From contig JAITUR010000061.1 of assembly GCA_031286205.1 (NCBI GenBank), positions 1 to 64,000 of the forward strand: a stretch of DNA of 64,000 nt. Direction: 5' to 3'. Under the pieces are notes generated by a model. That model searched no databases. It was given only the letters and a program-made list of their open reading frames with translations, and was not told the DNA's origin. The DNA comes from Treponema sp. GTDB lineage: Bacteria; Spirochaetota; Spirochaetia; Treponematales; Breznakiellaceae. Of the stretch, positions 42,108-52,896 are shown in pieces; within the stretch, counting starts at the first letter, position 1, and each line of letters begins with the position of its first letter. Position numbers and translations under genes: made by a program.

Positions 42108-42180
42108 GGACCGCTAGCTCAGTTGGTAGAGCAGTAGACTCTTAATCTACGGGTCGATGGTTCGAATCCATCGCGGTTCA
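42108..42180 (+). tRNA. tRNA-Lys (anticodon CTT)
   Basis: Acceptor ggaccgc/gcggttc + a; anticodon arm gtaga-ctcttaa-tctac; T arm gatgg-ttcgaat-ccatc; 73 nt. Confidence 0.96.
42138..42180 (+). repeat. attL core: 3' 43 bp of tRNA-Lys (R1)
   Basis: Exact 43-bp match to 51752-51794. Confidence 0.95.
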
Positions 42181-42309: not shown

Positions 42310-43641
42310 ATGCGCGGTTTTAACCTTTACAGACAATCAAAAACAGGTAACTACGCGGCGGAAATTCTTAATCCTGAAACAGGGCAAAGAATTTGTTATC
42401 GGTCAACTATGACCAAAAATAGAGACGAAGCACTTATAATCGTTTCAGGATGGCTTCAGGACGGTATCCCAGAACGCAAGCGCGGGCGCATACCGGTATA
42501 TAAAAAGCCCGAACCACAAACATTGGAAGCGGTATCGAGTTTGACAGGTATTCTTAAAATCATTGAAAATATCGAGTTAGACACTGCCGGAGCTTTACGG
42601 ATTGCGGAAGTATTAAGAAATAGAGGGCTTTTATCCCTTCCGGCAACAGATGCGAAGCGTGGAAGTATAGAATTTATAACTTATCTTAAAAACTTTTTTG
42701 ACTATGAAAAGTCTGCTTATGTACGCGAGAAACTGGCTCACGGGCAGTCGATAGGGCGCGGATATTGCATGGAAGCAACGAGAAGGATAGAACGATTCTG
42801 GGCTCCACAGTTTCAAGGGCGCCAAATGGCAAGCATTACAAGGAAAGACTTAAAAGATTTTTCCCTTCATATTGCCGGCATGGGTTATTCTTCATATCAC
42901 CTGAATTCAATCTTGAAAGCCGGAACGGTTCCATTGGGATACGCGGCACAGGAAGGGTTCATTCCTTCCAATCCCGCCGCCGGGCTTAAAATGTATTCAA
43001 ATAATGAACAGAAGCGCGGATGCCTCACTCCGCAGGAAGTAGAGATGGTTTTTTCCCACTACTGGAAAGATAAAGCGGCATATGCCGGAAATGCGCTTGC
43101 AATGACAACAGGGTTAAGATTAGGTGAAGTACTTGCCATAAGTAAAAATGACATTGATATTGAAAAAAATGTTTTACATATAAGGCACTCATGAAATAGA
43201 AAATATAAAGATGCATTAAAGCTTCCTAAAAATGGGGAAGTCCGCAGAGTTCCATTATTGCCGGATGTTAAAAAAGGACTGCTTGAACTACTGGCGGATA
43301 ATCCGCACAAAACAGATAATCCGTTTGTTTTCTATGGACTTGATCCTTACTTACCGCGTTATGACGGACATTTTATTTATAAAGGACTGAAAGAAGCATT
43401 TATAAGATATGGAATAGACTATAAGGCAAGAAAAATTTGCTTTCACTCATGGCGGCACTATTACGCCGCCCGCATGACGGATGTAATGACAGCGGAACAG
43501 GTACAGCGCGTTACTGGGCATAAATCAAAGGCGGTATTTGAAGCCTATGCGGATCATGTCATTGATGAAAATATCGAGGTTATGGGAAGGGCGGCGGCTG
43601 AAGTGTTTGGGAGTATCTTCCAGTTTAAGAAAAGCGCGTAA
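42310..43641 (+). pseudogene. Tyrosine recombinase/integrase interrupted by a single in-frame TGA (43192-43194)
   Basis: ORFs 42310-43194 and 43258-43641 share a frame. Reading through gives ...LHIRHS[TGA]NRKYKDALKLPKNGEVRRVPLLPDVKKG... . Catalytic FHSWRHYYAARM and VTGHKSKAVFEAY lie downstream. Confidence 0.9.
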
Positions 43642-43721: not shown

Positions 43722-44021
43722 TTATGCCGCTTTTGGCTCCGGTCTTACTTGTAAGCCAAAACCCAAAGAAAGTAATACTTTCATAATTGTTTCAAAAGAC
43801 GGATTGCCGCCCTGCGAGAGAGATTTATACAGACTTTCCCTGCCGCGATTTGTATCATCTGCTATTTTTGACATTCCCCGCGCTCGGGCTACATCACCAA
43901 TAGCGGCAATGATAAGATCGGGATCATCGCTTTTGAATATATCGTCAAGATATACGGCGATCTGCTCCTCGGTTTCAAGGTATTCTGCCGGATCCCATAC
44001 AGTTGTTTTTACTGGCTTCAT
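43722..44021 (-). CDS. HigA-like addiction-module antidote (HTH)
   Basis: PVKTTVWDPAEYLETEEQIAVYLDDIF...AIGDVARARGMSKIADDTNRGRESLYKSLSQGGNPSFETIMKVLLSLGFGLQV. Confidence 0.88.
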   Translation of the reverse strand: MKPVKTTVWDPAEYLETEEQIAVYLDDIFKSDDPDLIIAAIGDVARARGMSKIADDTNRGRESLYKSLSQGGNPSFETIMKVLLSLGFGLQVRPEPKAA

Positions 44022-44320
44022 ACTATGCCTCCTAATTTGTCCGCGATTTGCTTCGCGGTCTCTATATCCCTACTCTGCGAAGATTTATTTCCTCCGCAAA
44101 GCAATATGATAATTTCCCTACCCCTTCGGGTGTAATACACACGGTAACCGGAACCGTAATCAATACGCAGTTCTGAAACATTGCCGCCGACTGGCTTAGT
44201 ATCCCCAAAATTGCCGGAAGAGATACGGCGGATACGGGCGTTAATAATGGACTGTGCTATTTTGTCTTTTAAGTCTCTTATCCAAGTCTTAAAATTATCC
44301 GTTTCCTGAACCTTTAGCAT
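44018..44320 (-). CDS. RelE/ParE/HigB-like toxin (TA operon 1)
   Basis: MLKVQETDNFKTWIRDLKDKIAQSIINARIRRISSGNFGDTKPVGGNVSELRIDYGSGYRVYYTRRGREIIILLCGGNKSSQSRDIETAKQIA; start set by promoter position. Confidence 0.88.
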   Translation of the reverse strand: MLKVQETDNFKTWIRDLKDKIAQSIINARIRRISSGNFGDTKPVGGNVSELRIDYGSGYRVYYTRRGREIIILLCGGNKSSQSRDIETAKQIADKLGGIV

Positions 44321-44326
44321 ATCTCT

Positions 44327-44355
44327 ATTGTATCCTGAAAGATACAATATGTCAA
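44327..44355 (-). promoter_or_regulatory. Promoter of TA operon 1
   Basis: Minus strand TTGACA-N17-TACAAT-AGAGAT-ATG; palindrome ATTGTATC-ctgaaa-GATACAAT overlaps the -10. Confidence 0.8.
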
Positions 44356-44370
44356 GAGGTTTCCCCTAAT

Positions 44371-44428
44371 AGTTATTCACTCATTCACATATATATAGGG
44401 AAAAGTGAATGAATGAATAAGGAATGAG
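44371..44428 (+). repeat. TGAATGAA hairpin repeat, copy A
   Basis: agttattcactcattcacatatatatagggaaaagtgaatgaatgaataaggaatgag. Confidence 0.9.
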
Positions 44429-44467
44429 ATAGGGTGTCCAATTTTGCCCCGTACGAACAAGAGGTAA

Positions 44468-44653
44468 TTAAATATTTTGCTTATTTTTCTTGTATGCCCT
44501 TATCCCAATTATTATAACAATAACCGATGCCGCAAACAAAATTAGCCATAGTATAACGCGGAAAAGCAAAGATTTTACGAAAAAATACGCAAATATAAAA
44601 ACACAAATAAGTAGAATTGCCGCCAGTATAAGGGTTTTTATTAATTTAATCAT
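44468..44653 (-). CDS. Small two-TM membrane protein downstream of hicB
   Basis: MIKLIKTLILAAILLICVFIFAYFFVKSLLFRVILWLILFAASVIVIIIGIRAYKKNKQNI; 10-bp gap to HicB. Confidence 0.6.
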   Translation of the reverse strand: MIKLIKTLILAAILLICVFIFAYFFVKSLLFRVILWLILFAASVIVIIIGIRAYKKNKQNI

Positions 44654-44663
44654 ATTGTTACCT

Positions 44664-45065
44664 TTATAATGAAATACTTAACTCCCGACCATAAACGCTA
44701 GCTATTTTTTCCAATGTTTTTACGGTCGGGTTCGCTTTCCGCGGGTTTTCAAGGCGTTGGTAGGATTGATAAGAAAGTCCAAGCCGTTTAGCAATATCGG
44801 TCTGACTTTGTTCTCCCCTGAGTTCCCGAAGCCGGAGAGACAAAATGATATGGCTTGCTACAGAAATTGGATAACCATCTTTATATATGGGCGCAGGAAT
44901 TGCGTTTCCTTGGGAGATGTCGGCTTCAAGACACCCTTCAAGGGCTTCTTTTGCCATTTCTAGAGCGTGTTCGTGAGAAAAACCAAAAGTTAATACATTT
45001 GGCATATCAGGAAAGTCCACTACAAACTTATCCCCATCTTTTTCTATATTGCAACGGTAAATCAT
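44664..45065 (-). CDS. hicB: HicB-like antitoxin with C-terminal XRE domain
   Basis: MIYRCNIEKDGDKFVVDFPDMPNVLTFGFSHEHALEMAKEALEGCLEADI + HTH. Confidence 0.9.
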   Translation of the reverse strand: MIYRCNIEKDGDKFVVDFPDMPNVLTFGFSHEHALEMAKEALEGCLEADISQGNAIPAPIYKDGYPISVASHIILSLRLRELRGEQSQTDIAKRLGLSYQSYQRLENPRKANPTVKTLEKIASVYGRELSISL

Positions 45066-45074
45066 ATAAACCTC

Positions 45075-45254
45075 CTATTTGATACCAGCTTGTTTAAGTA
45101 TCCTTTTTCCCAAAATACCCAAATCAATATTACCATGAAACGGAACAGACACAGAGCGACAGCTTTCTTTGACAAAAATATGATGAGAACCTCTAATTCT
45201 GTTTAGGTTCCACCCATTTGCTTTAAGTATTTTTATTATTTCTTTTGCTGTCAT
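45075..45254 (-). CDS. hicA: HicA-like toxin (YcfA family; TA operon 2)
   Basis: MTAKEIIKILKANGWNLNRIRGSHHIFVKESCRSVSVPFHGNIDLGILGKRILKQAGIK; start set by promoter. Confidence 0.9.
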   Translation of the reverse strand: MTAKEIIKILKANGWNLNRIRGSHHIFVKESCRSVSVPFHGNIDLGILGKRILKQAGIK

Positions 45255-45260
45255 AGAATG

Positions 45261-45289
45261 AATATACAACATATATATTGTATTGTCAA
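45261..45289 (-). promoter_or_regulatory. Promoter of TA operon 2
   Basis: Minus strand TTGACA-N17-TATATT-CATTCT-ATG. Confidence 0.8.
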
Positions 45290-45304
45290 TAGGGCTTCCC
45301 CTAA

Positions 45305-45358
45305 TAGTTATTCACCTTATTCACCTGTATATAGGGAAAAGTGAATGAATGAATAACT
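45305..45358 (+). repeat. TGAATGAA hairpin repeat, copy B
   Basis: agttattcaccttattcacctgtatatagggaaaagtgaatgaatgaataact. Confidence 0.9.
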
Positions 45359-45467
45359 ATTACACACACACACACACTTATATATAGGTATATATGTGTG
45401 TGTGTGTATCATAGCCGGAAGCGTAAGGATTGGCTCTACGGCGTTCGTGAGGATAGAACAAGCCTTG

Positions 45468-45764
45468 TTACCCGCTCTGCGCCATGGGAACCAAGGTTAT
45501 TTTATACCCAAGGGAAAGCGCAACTTTTGCAACGGTATCAAAGGCGGGCTTCCCATTTTTTGAAAGAGATTGATATAGACTGGTACGGGTAACGCCTGCG
45601 GCTTTTGCGGCGGGTGTCATTGCCTTGCGTGCCCGCGCAATATCCGCAAGGGCTACCGGTAAATAGTTATAGTCTTTTTCTTCAAGGACTACTTCTAAGT
45701 ATTCGTGTATGTCGTCATCTGTTTTAAGGTAATTAATAACATCGAATTTCTTGGTTTTAATCAT
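45468..45764 (-). CDS. HigA-like addiction-module antidote
   Basis: FDVINYLKTDDDIHEYLEVVLEEKDYNYLPVALADIARARKAMTPAAKAAGVTRTSLYQSLSKNGKPAFDTVAKVALSLGYKI. Confidence 0.88.
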   Translation of the reverse strand: MIKTKKFDVINYLKTDDDIHEYLEVVLEEKDYNYLPVALADIARARKAMTPAAKAAGVTRTSLYQSLSKNGKPAFDTVAKVALSLGYKITLVPMAQSG

Positions 45765-46054
45765 ATTAAATCCTTTGCCATGTTTCTGGCTTTTATAATA
45801 TCTTTATTTTGCGTAGACTTATTACCACCGCAGAGCATGATAATAATTCTTTTTCCATGGTTCACAAAATAAAGCCTATATCCTTGACCGTATCTGATTT
45901 TAGCTTCAAAAAGACCGTCATTCAGGGATCGAACTTCGCCAAGTGAACCAAGCGACATTGTCCTGATACGCTTAATGATAATTTTTTGAATTTTGCTATC
46001 TGTTAACCCCCTGAGCCAGTTGTCAAATTCATCGGTCAATTCAATATCGTACAT
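45761..46054 (-). CDS. RelE/ParE/HigB-like toxin (TA operon 3)
   Basis: MYDIELTDEFDNWLRGLTDSKIQKIIIKRIRTMSLGSLGEVRSLNDGLFEAKIRYGQGYRLYFVNHGKRIIIMLCGGNKSTQNKDI. Confidence 0.9.
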   Translation of the reverse strand: MYDIELTDEFDNWLRGLTDSKIQKIIIKRIRTMSLGSLGEVRSLNDGLFEAKIRYGQGYRLYFVNHGKRIIIMLCGGNKSTQNKDIIKARNMAKDLI

Positions 46055-46060
46055 ATATAT

Positions 46061-46089
46061 ATTGTATTATATATAAGACAATCTGTCAA
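46061..46089 (-). promoter_or_regulatory. Promoter of TA operon 3
   Basis: Minus strand TTGACA-N17-TACAAT-ATATAT-ATG. Confidence 0.8.
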
Positions 46090-46113: not shown

Positions 46114-46172
46114 TAGTTATTCACTCATTCACCTGTATATAGGGAAAAGTGAATGAATGAATAAGGAATGAG
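46114..46172 (+). repeat. TGAATGAA hairpin repeat, copy C
   Basis: agttattcactcattcacctgtatatagggaaaagtgaatgaatgaataaggaatgag. Confidence 0.9.
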
Positions 46173-46428: not shown

Positions 46429-46647
46429 CTATATCTCTTCCCCGGTGTCGTTTAGGACAAATTTTGCCTTAAATGTGCAATTTAGTACATCGGCAATTTC
46501 TTTCAACTCTTTTTCTGAAAAATTATCCCGTTTCATTTTATTAGACATATTTTGTGGGGATTGTCCAGTTTTTTTTGCAAGGTCGGTAATCGATAATCCC
46601 CGCCTTCCGATTAAAACCTTAATTTTTTCACCAAATGTAAGTGGCAT
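46429..46647 (-). CDS. XRE-family regulator
   Basis: GEKIKVLIGRRGLSITDLAKKTGQSPQNMSNKMKRDNFSEKELKEIADVL; SD ggaggg upstream. Confidence 0.8.
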   Translation of the reverse strand: MPLTFGEKIKVLIGRRGLSITDLAKKTGQSPQNMSNKMKRDNFSEKELKEIADVLNCTFKAKFVLNDTGEEI

Positions 46648-46738
46648 TATTACCCTCCAAATCTATTTATATTATACATCTTATAATGTATTTTCGTCAA
46701 TAATATTTGAAAAATAAATAAAAAAGTGTAAATAATGC

Positions 46739-46767
46739 TTGACAAGCTAAATTAAATAGTGTATAAT
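46739..46767 (+). promoter_or_regulatory. Consensus sigma70-type promoter
   Basis: TTGACA-N17-TATAAT upstream of the 46803 ORF. Confidence 0.85.
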
Positions 46768-46802: not shown

Positions 46803-47207
46803 ATGACAAGAGAATTGAAAAGCAAAGTAATGGCGTTGGGCAACAGGCTAGCCCCTCGCATGGACGGCGACCGCGGCGCGGCATTTGTTCAGGCTTGGAC
46901 AATCGTAAAAGCTGGCGGTCTGGAATTAGCGGTTCGGGGTGTTTCATTCGGCAACCGCCAAGAAGCCCTCCGCAGGCTGGCAAAATACAGCCCTGACCAA
47001 ATACGGGCTTTCATAGTGCCGGAACCCTGCAACAAGGCAGACAAGAAAGCCGCCGCCGTTTGGGTAGGTGTCCAGTACGGGCGTGGATTGTACCGTCTGG
47101 GCTATTTGCCGGCACAATACGCGCCAGCAGCGGTAAGTTTGAAAGCCGCAGGGCTTCGGGTGATAACCGGGGATATTAACGGCGCAAGGCTCCGGGTGGC
47201 GGTGTAA
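46803..47207 (+). CDS. Hypothetical protein of integrative/phage-like elements
   Basis: Strong promoter and SD aaggag; no recognised catalytic motif. Confidence 0.65.
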   Translation: MTRELKSKVMALGNRLAPRMDGDRGAAFVQAWTIVKAGGLELAVRGVSFGNRQEALRRLAKYSPDQIRAFIVPEPCNKADKKAAAVWVGVQYGRGLYRLGYLPAQYAPAAVSLKAAGLRVITGDINGARLRVAV

Positions 47208-50824: not shown

Positions 50825-50846
50825 TGTGAATAGTGTGAATAAGGAT

Positions 50847-50904
50847 AGTTATTCATTCATTCACTTTTCCCTATATACAGGTGAATGAGTGAATAAGGAA
50901 TAAC
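50847..50904 (-). repeat. TGAATGAA hairpin repeat, copy D (inverted relative to A-C)
   Basis: gttattcattcattcacttttccctatatacaggtgaatgagtgaataaggaataac. Confidence 0.9.
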
Positions 50905-51690: not shown

Positions 51691-51720
51691 ATTGACAAAT
51701 ACAGCCCTGTATAGTAACAT
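51691..51720 (+). promoter_or_regulatory. Outward-facing promoter at the right end of the island
   Basis: TTGACA-N17-TAACAT (attgacaaatacagccctgtatagtaacat), duplicated at about 52795. Confidence 0.65.
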
Positions 51721-51751
51721 ATATATAAGAAGGTTATGTGCGTTATGTGCA

Positions 51752-51794
51752 ACTCTTAATCTACGGGTCGATGGTTCGAATCCATCGCGGTTCA
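51752..51794 (+). repeat. attR core: tRNA-Lys 3' 43-bp repeat (R2)
   Basis: Exact match to 42138-42180. Confidence 0.95.
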
Positions 51795-51803
51795 AGAAAA
51801 AAT

Positions 51804-51926
51804 GCGATGGATTCGAACGGTTAAGCCCGCCGACAGGAAAAGGCGCCATGGAGGGCGCCGGCAGGGTTTAACCGCGGCCTGGAAGGAGGCAACAGGAAGT
51901 TGCTGACTGGAAGGCGAATCCATCGC
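51804..51926. repeat. 123-bp structured element with tRNA-3'-derived terminal inverted repeats
   Basis: Ends GCGATGGATTCG / CGAATCCATCGC; internal GGCGCC-atggag-GGCGCC, GGTTAAgCCC/GGGTTTAACC and GCAAC-aggaa-GTTGC hairpins. Confidence 0.7.
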
Positions 51927-51932
51927 GGTTCA
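51915..51932 (+). repeat. tRNA-Lys 3' end fragment (R3)
   Basis: CGAATCCATCGCGGTTCA identical to the tRNA 3' end; followed by gagagttaatt, similar to gagtgttaatt after the real tRNA. Confidence 0.85.
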
Positions 51933-51966
51933 GAGAGTTAATTCCCCTATATAGTGAGGTAAGTAA

Positions 51967-52734: not shown

Positions 52735-52855
52735 AAGGGCAGAGATTTATAGCAGGGGTGCTGACGGAATTCGCTGCCGCTCAGCCTAAATTTCATTGAC
52801 AAAAACAGCCCGGTATAGTAACATATATACATGAAGGCAAAATGCGTTAAGCGCA

Positions 52856-52896
52856 ACCCTAATCTGCGGGTCATGGGTTAATCCCATTGCGGTTCA
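52856..52896 (+). repeat. Degenerate tRNA-Lys 3' fragment (R4)
   Basis: ACCCTAATCTGCGGGTCATGGGTTAATCCCATTGCGGTTCA vs ACTCTTAATCTACGGGTCGATGGTTCGAATCCATCGCGGTTCA. Confidence 0.8.

Follow-up and report, generated by a model that had tools for sequence, protein, structure and literature searches.

Toxin-first toxin-antitoxin operons in a Treponema genome carry promoters predicted to give leaderless toxin mRNAs

Introduction

Why should the toxin genes of three neighbouring toxin-antitoxin (TA) operons each begin 6 nucleotides (nt) behind the -10 element of a strong promoter, and does this layout belong to the island that carries them or to the toxins themselves? The question is raised by the first 64,000 nt of contig JAITUR010000061.1 (assembly GCA_031286205.1, Treponema sp.); this whole stretch is called the window here. 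An earlier description of the DNA (the sequence-only reading) had listed the three minus-strand promoters at operons TA1, TA2 and TA3 and had proposed that the toxins are translated from leaderless mRNAs, that the antitoxins use internal initiation or coupling, and that the island favours such modules. The comparisons reported here suggest that toxin-first modules of this kind quite probably combine an autorepressed promoter, a leaderless toxin mRNA and an antitoxin led by its own Shine-Dalgarno (SD) sequence.

Results

The three promoters were found as described, with an exact TTGACA, a 17-nt spacer, a TAnnnT element and 6 nt to the ATG at TA1, TA2 and TA3. The pattern TTGACA-N15-19-TANNNT-N6-ATG occurred four times in the window, compared to 0.05 expected from dinucleotide shuffles (standard deviation 0.22), and an independent sigma-70-like scan placed the three TA promoters among the best matches of the region (11/12 positions). 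All three toxin genes start with ATG and none is preceded by an SD. Together with the 6-nt spacing, this supports the predicted leaderless toxin mRNAs. The antitoxin genes are closely linked to the toxin genes, with AGGAGG-type SDs at TA1 and TA2 and a weak SD plus an ATGA overlap at TA3, which is consistent with the proposed internal initiation or coupling. The fourth pattern match (52796, plus strand) precedes no gene and was rejected, as it belongs to a tRNA-type promoter that is duplicated and has tRNA 3' fragments as neighbours. This promoter, with its degenerate tRNA-like 3' sequence, was present in two copies that are 83% identical (51691-51756 and 52795-52860), the second of which is the fourth pattern match.

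The operons span positions 43722-44320 (TA1), 44664-45254 (TA2) and 45468-46054 (TA3), and the promoters lie directly upstream of each. The toxins of TA1 and TA3 matched TIGR02683 with 132.4 and 109.9 bits (curated cut-off 62.85) and their antitoxins matched TIGR02684 with 110.8 and 89.4 bits (cut-off 53.7). The TA2 toxin, HicA, scored 58.4 bits against PF07927 (cut-off 27), and the next gene 29.5 bits against PF15919 (cut-off 27), plus the helix-turn-helix (HTH) domain HTH_3. Judged by these profile matches, TA1 and TA3 are HI1419/HI1420-type type II TA modules and TA2 is HicAB. The label 'HigBA-like' previously given to TA1 and TA3 proved to be loose naming: their toxins belong to PF05973/TIGR02683, and a classical HigBA assignment was dropped, as these were the only matches at the thresholds used and no HigB family was among them. 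A sequence search of the PDB gave no relative. The observation that unrelated toxin families, HI1419-type and HicA, have the same layout was upheld. The statement that the geometry is not simply a copied block was borne out only in part, since TA1 and TA3 are paralogous and the hairpin upstream is common to all three operons. The TA1 and TA3 promoters are 78% identical over 45 nt; given this likeness and the near-identical hairpin, the window holds two independent cases, HI1419-type and HicA, rather than three.

The occurrence of the geometry was tallied by gene order in this genome, of which 1.99 of 2.34 Mb was covered. It was present in all seven toxin-first operons. Five of these encode PF05973 toxins, which are all that were found (two on contig C15, the others on C21, C81 and C124), and each has an exact TTGACA-N17-TAnnnT-N6/7-ATG; the other two are HicA-first operons on C15 and C81. 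Ten antitoxin-first operons were inspected (two ParE, five PIN and three HicB-HicA), nine of which lacked the geometry and most of which had an SD. The tenth, a Phd-PIN operon on C97, has a strict site at 6 nt, yet a later ATG behind a G-rich stretch suits the protein better; it was not accepted as leaderless and was scored as ambiguous. A sixth PIN operon and two MNT genes were kept outside the antitoxin-first tally, being beyond the analysed DNA or not clear operons. Fisher's exact test gave P = 8.7e-5 (7/7 versus 0/9), or 4e-4 if the C97 operon is scored as leaderless, values that are indicative only because the tally followed sight of the pattern and because TA1 and TA3 are paralogs. Two antitoxin-first MNT operons also look leaderless, so that gene order predicts the geometry well but not without exception. 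In related genomes, strict promoters were found at 4 of 10 PF05973 matches (three genomes listed in full) and at only one HicA match, the promoters and matches being paired manually by their coordinates. No viral relatives were found for the C21-type toxin, for the MNT protein or for the antitoxins from the two ParE operons, so that the antitoxin-first operons have no cross-phylum control.

HI1419-type homologs were gathered from genomes (80) and from viral contigs (80), and 135, which represent more than ten phyla as well as prophages, had non-redundant upstream DNA. A full promoter was defined as a -35 element with at most two mismatches, a spacer of 16-18 nt and TAnnnT. Such a promoter ended exactly 6 nt before the start in 54/135 homologs and 5-7 nt before it in 70/135, compared to 1/784 flanking open reading frames (ORFs) at the same loci, a rate that is somewhat understated by taking the first ATG as the flanking start. 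Among the genome-derived cases, 44 of 78 met the strict criterion at 5-7 nt, and the phyla represented, assigned by hand from record titles, include Alpha-, Beta-, Gamma- and Deltaproteobacteria, Nitrospirae, Actinobacteria, Chloroflexi, Spirochaetes, Marinimicrobia and Hydrogenedentota. The homolog columns read TTG at -35 to -33, TGTA at -26 to -23 and TACA at -12 to -9, position -1 is a pyrimidine in 79%, and the start is ATG in 119/135. SD matches of at least 4 nt preceded 12/133 toxin starts (9.0%, as for random 12-mers, 9.0%) and 100/133 antitoxin starts (75%), the latter lying mostly -14 to +10 nt relative to the toxin stop. An SD-led alternative toxin start within 25 codons was present in only 3/135.

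By this comparison the geometry belongs to the toxin families and not to the island. The claim that the island favours such TA modules was not supported, as the same geometry occurs beyond this contig, both elsewhere in the genome and in further species of the genus, and also outside the phylum. Selection by the island also disagrees with other island genes, which have equally good promoters followed by leaders and SDs. One of these promoters (46700-46671, minus strand) has its -10 end at 46671 and its ATG at 46647, with a 23-nt leader containing GGAGG; the other (46739-46767, plus strand) has its -10 end at 46767 and its ATG at 46803, with a 35-nt leader containing AAGGAG.

The closest relative of TA2 (L337, 78% identity) has kept both the promoter, as TTGACA-N17-TATGTT-N6-ATG, and the palindrome within it. 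Viral HicA homologs formed two classes by the distance of the -10 element, with few homologs in between: at 5-8 nt (n=14) all start with ATG and none has an SD, and at 20-36 nt (n=26) 19 have an SD and 14 start with GTG. This split between leaderless, ATG, SD-free starts and leadered, SD-led starts is what is expected if a spacing of 6-7 nt truly means leaderless.

Across the genome, the distance from the -10 end to the ATG peaked at 6 nt, both with an exact TTGACA (16 versus ∼1-2 per position, ORFs of at least 60 codons) and with at most one -35 mismatch (48 versus ∼8). The peak was specific to ATG and absent for GTG/TTG and for decoy spacers. In the 1,228 genes that encode 150 amino acids (aa) or more, the excess, calculated as counts minus the level at other distances, ranged from ∼3% of genes (at most one -35 mismatch, distance 5-8 nt) to ∼7% (at most two mismatches, distance 4-8 nt). 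The candidates of this genome had a pyrimidine at -1 in 72/87 cases and never a G, as at real start sites, and in 36/36 genomes of the same genus the pattern exceeded a reversed-pattern control. The class includes apparent housekeeping genes, which from their N-termini, read by eye, we take to be HtpG-like and LepA-like, for example. Leaderless-type promoters are thus, as far as such patterns tell, a general feature of the genus; leaderless transcripts have been mapped in Leptospira (PMC5243855). The sequence-only reading had said that it would be refuted if the same spacing were common at ordinary promoters of this genome. The spacing does form a genome-wide class, which speaks against island specificity, but toxin-first TA operons lie far above that background.

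Palindromes were found in all three TA promoters, and sequences as good arose in 0/300 shuffles for TA1, 5/300 for TA2 and 3/300 for TA3. In the HI1419 family the palindrome is TGTA-N10-TACA (18 bp), and the -10 element begins with its right arm. Elsewhere in the genome, two promoters on contig C93 (L123:1336-1376 and 2885-2924) have a common palindrome, TTGTACTAGTACA. One of them is separated by 9 nt from the ATG of a GntR-type-looking regulator and the other precedes a leadered ABC-transporter-like gene, gene names that we assume from reading by eye.

The coordinates of the operons and of the hairpin repeats are given in Table 1. The hairpin repeat is near-identical over 48-59 nt, with one copy before each TA operon, and no further copies were found outside this element in this genome or in 60 relatives. 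It may be a terminator, an insulator or a recombination site. An integron-cassette reading of it was dropped, though no attC model was applied, as the recombinase of the element has a tRNA gene and att-like repeats next to it and the hairpin is confined to the element. The tyrosine-recombinase gene (42310-43641, plus strand) is interrupted by an in-frame TGA at 43192-43194 and is probably broken or otherwise programmed, because TGA is an ordinary stop in this genome. Beside it is a tRNA-Lys gene (42108-42180), two 3'-end copies of which lie ∼9.6 kb away (51729-51795 and 51909-51943); the gene and the copies resemble the att sites expected for an integrated element (∼42.1-51.8 kb). Directly 3' of hicB, in the TA2 segment, a 61-aa predicted membrane protein with a weak DUF4199 match is encoded (44468-44653, minus strand). 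Between the TA3 antitoxin gene and the TA2 hairpin there is a (TG)n/(CA)n stretch (45357-45414) that forms an inverted repeat of 85%.

Table 1. Positions in the window of the promoters and genes of TA1, TA2 and TA3 and of the hairpin repeats.
Feature	Position	Strand	Description
TA1 promoter	44318-44355	-	TTGACA-N17-TACAAT-N6-ATG; 24-nt palindrome TATTGTATCTTTCAGGATACAATA across spacer and -10
TA1 toxin	44018-44320	-	RelE/ParE family, HI1419 type (TIGR02683, PF05973); 100 aa; no SD
TA1 antitoxin	43722-44021	-	HI1420 type (TIGR02684, PF21716); 4-nt overlap with toxin stop; SD TAGGAGG
TA2 promoter	45252-45289	-	TTGACA-N17-TATATT-N6-ATG; palindrome ATACAATATATATGTTGTAT within spacer
TA2 toxin	45075-45254	-	HicA (PF07927); 59 aa; no SD
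TA2 antitoxin	44664-45065	-	HicB-like with HTH domain (PF15919, PF01381); SD AGGAGG 5' of ATG
TA3 promoter	46052-46089	-	TTGACA-N17-TACAAT-N6-ATG; palindrome ATTGTCTTATATATAATACAAT across spacer and -10
TA3 toxin	45761-46054	-	RelE/ParE family, HI1419 type (TIGR02683, PF05973); 97 aa; no SD
TA3 antitoxin	45468-45764	-	HI1420 type (TIGR02684, PF21716); 4-nt ATGA overlap with toxin stop; weak SD-like AAGGA
Hairpin repeat upstream of TA1	44370-44428		folded stem, -19.6 kcal/mol
Hairpin repeat upstream of TA2	45306-45364		
Hairpin repeat upstream of TA3	46114-46172		
Hairpin repeat, fourth copy	50846-50904	inverted	4.7 kb away

Discussion

The geometry, the toxins without SDs, the SDs at most antitoxins, the palindromes and the conservation of this arrangement can be joined in one mechanism. 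With only 6 nt between the -10 element of a strong sigma-70-type promoter and the toxin ATG, transcription would start on the A of that ATG, and we propose that the toxin is translated from the 5'-terminal AUG of the resulting leaderless mRNA. A palindromic operator between the -35 and -10 elements, overlapping the -10 in the HI1419 family, would allow the antitoxin or the TA complex to shut the promoter. The antitoxin gene, second in the operon and overlapping or near the toxin stop, would usually be translated from its own SD, so that two different initiation routes would be used on one mRNA. During normal growth the antitoxin would be in excess, and when canonical initiation is impaired the ratio would move towards the toxin. 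In Escherichia coli, leaderless mRNAs are translated at low efficiency and best with AUG (PMC8485053, PMC9031893), and kasugamycin is reported to spare them (PMC5230787). Together these properties suggest that the antitoxin is favoured in growth and the toxin when canonical initiation fails, and we infer that the leaderless start tunes the toxin:antitoxin ratio. If so, the ratio should move towards the toxin under kasugamycin and other conditions that leave leaderless initiation intact. Leaderless genes are common in this genus, and their baseline efficiency may differ from that seen in E. coli. In absolute terms, the 5' ends of the toxin messages are predicted to have only weak folds (48 nt; -1.2 to -4.3 kcal/mol). 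The proposed link between MazF and a 'stress ribosome' was not used as support, as other laboratories failed to reproduce it according to a review (PMC9031893). In a wider and more speculative form, toxin-first TA modules may be a cross-phylum class in which the toxin is hard-wired as leaderless and the antitoxin as SD-led; the ratio would then report the state of canonical initiation, and the toxin would be freed without antitoxin proteolysis when SD-dependent initiation fails. We hold this broader form to be rather doubtful.

Several observations weigh against leaderless toxin expression as the explanation. About half of the HI1419-type homologs fail the strict criterion, and in some, e.g. 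those of Xenorhabdus, a leader that includes an SD-like stretch precedes the gene. Leaders are also present in many HicA relatives and in most of a further set (L338-L367), which we take to be Firmicutes phages. Two MNT genes that come first in their operons also look leaderless. The candidate operator of higB on C81 was no better than chance (127/300 shuffles), and that on C21 was weak (40/300). Further, leaderless-type promoters are common throughout the genus.

Compact autoregulation would explain the spacing differently: operator and promoter would sit tightly against the gene to make repressor and polymerase compete, with a leaderless mRNA as a by-product that plays no part in the ratio. 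The palindromes between -35 and -10, and the right arm that forms the -10 in the HI1419 family, fit such a model. However, the 6-nt spacing was kept both with the common palindrome (27/55 homologs) and without it (27/80), and HicA relatives combine similar palindromic promoters with 20-36 nt leaders and SDs, which means that a leader is compatible with the operator. We regard compact autoregulation as possible but rather unlikely. It is improbable that the TA operons just follow the usual leaderless promoter layout of their genus, with nothing toxin-specific about them. The genome-wide 6-nt peak, the ∼3-7% of genes involved and the excess in all 36 same-genus genomes agree with such a habit, but the 7/7 toxin-first against 0/9 antitoxin-first operons of the same genome do not, and neither do the homologs in many phyla that keep the geometry among flanking genes without it (1/784). 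That the messages have leaders after all, from an unseen upstream promoter or through a true toxin start downstream behind an SD, is very improbable: the leaders with SDs of the Xenorhabdus-type and many HicA relatives and the better-looking later start at C97 would fit, but the window toxins lack SDs, family SDs are at chance level, SD-led alternative starts are rare (3/135), and no minus-strand promoter-like match that lies upstream of the sites within the three hairpin-to-toxin intervals is better than the sites themselves.

Leaderless mRNAs as such are not new to TA systems. In Mycobacterium tuberculosis, 32/37 TA pairs with a mapped primary start are leaderless (Cortes et al. 2013, PMC3898074), so that leaderless transcripts predominate there as is predicted for the window. 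In contrast to the window, a quarter of all M. tuberculosis genes are leaderless, and the passages of that paper on TA pairs draw no tie to the toxin gene; the geometry described here goes with toxin-first modules and is seen again in phyla whose flanking genes lack it. Mapped starts of Methylosinus sporium 5 show the same predominance of 17-nt spacers and of a 6-nt distance between -10 and start, with leaderless transcripts mainly of regulators and TA systems (PMC12403871), and the mapped leaderless transcripts of Synechocystis 6803 include TA systems (PMC4963859). The likeness to these two bacteria is one of TA systems as a class. In the literature searched, which covered few subscription journals and is thus weak evidence, no tie of leaderlessness to the toxin in the HI1419 and HicA families and no promoter-operator-ATG block was found. 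Leaderless TA transcripts are hence already known, and the toxin-tied conserved block in these two families is apparently new.

The closest functional parallels are paaR2 of the paaR2-paaA2-parE2 operon and lambda cI, where the promoter adjoins the ATG, the start has been mapped at the ATG and leaderless translation has been demonstrated; unlike in the window, the leaderless gene is a repressor and not a toxin (PMC8630535). The mqsRA operon is toxin-first, like those described here, and has the same need for antitoxin excess. It differs in having antitoxin promoters inside the toxin gene (PMC6918082), whereas the toxin genes of the TA operons here contain only weak promoter-like matches (9/12). 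How toxin-first operons achieve antitoxin excess is only partly understood, and a division of initiation routes, leaderless for the toxin and SD-led for the antitoxin, would if conserved be a simple answer for a widespread family.

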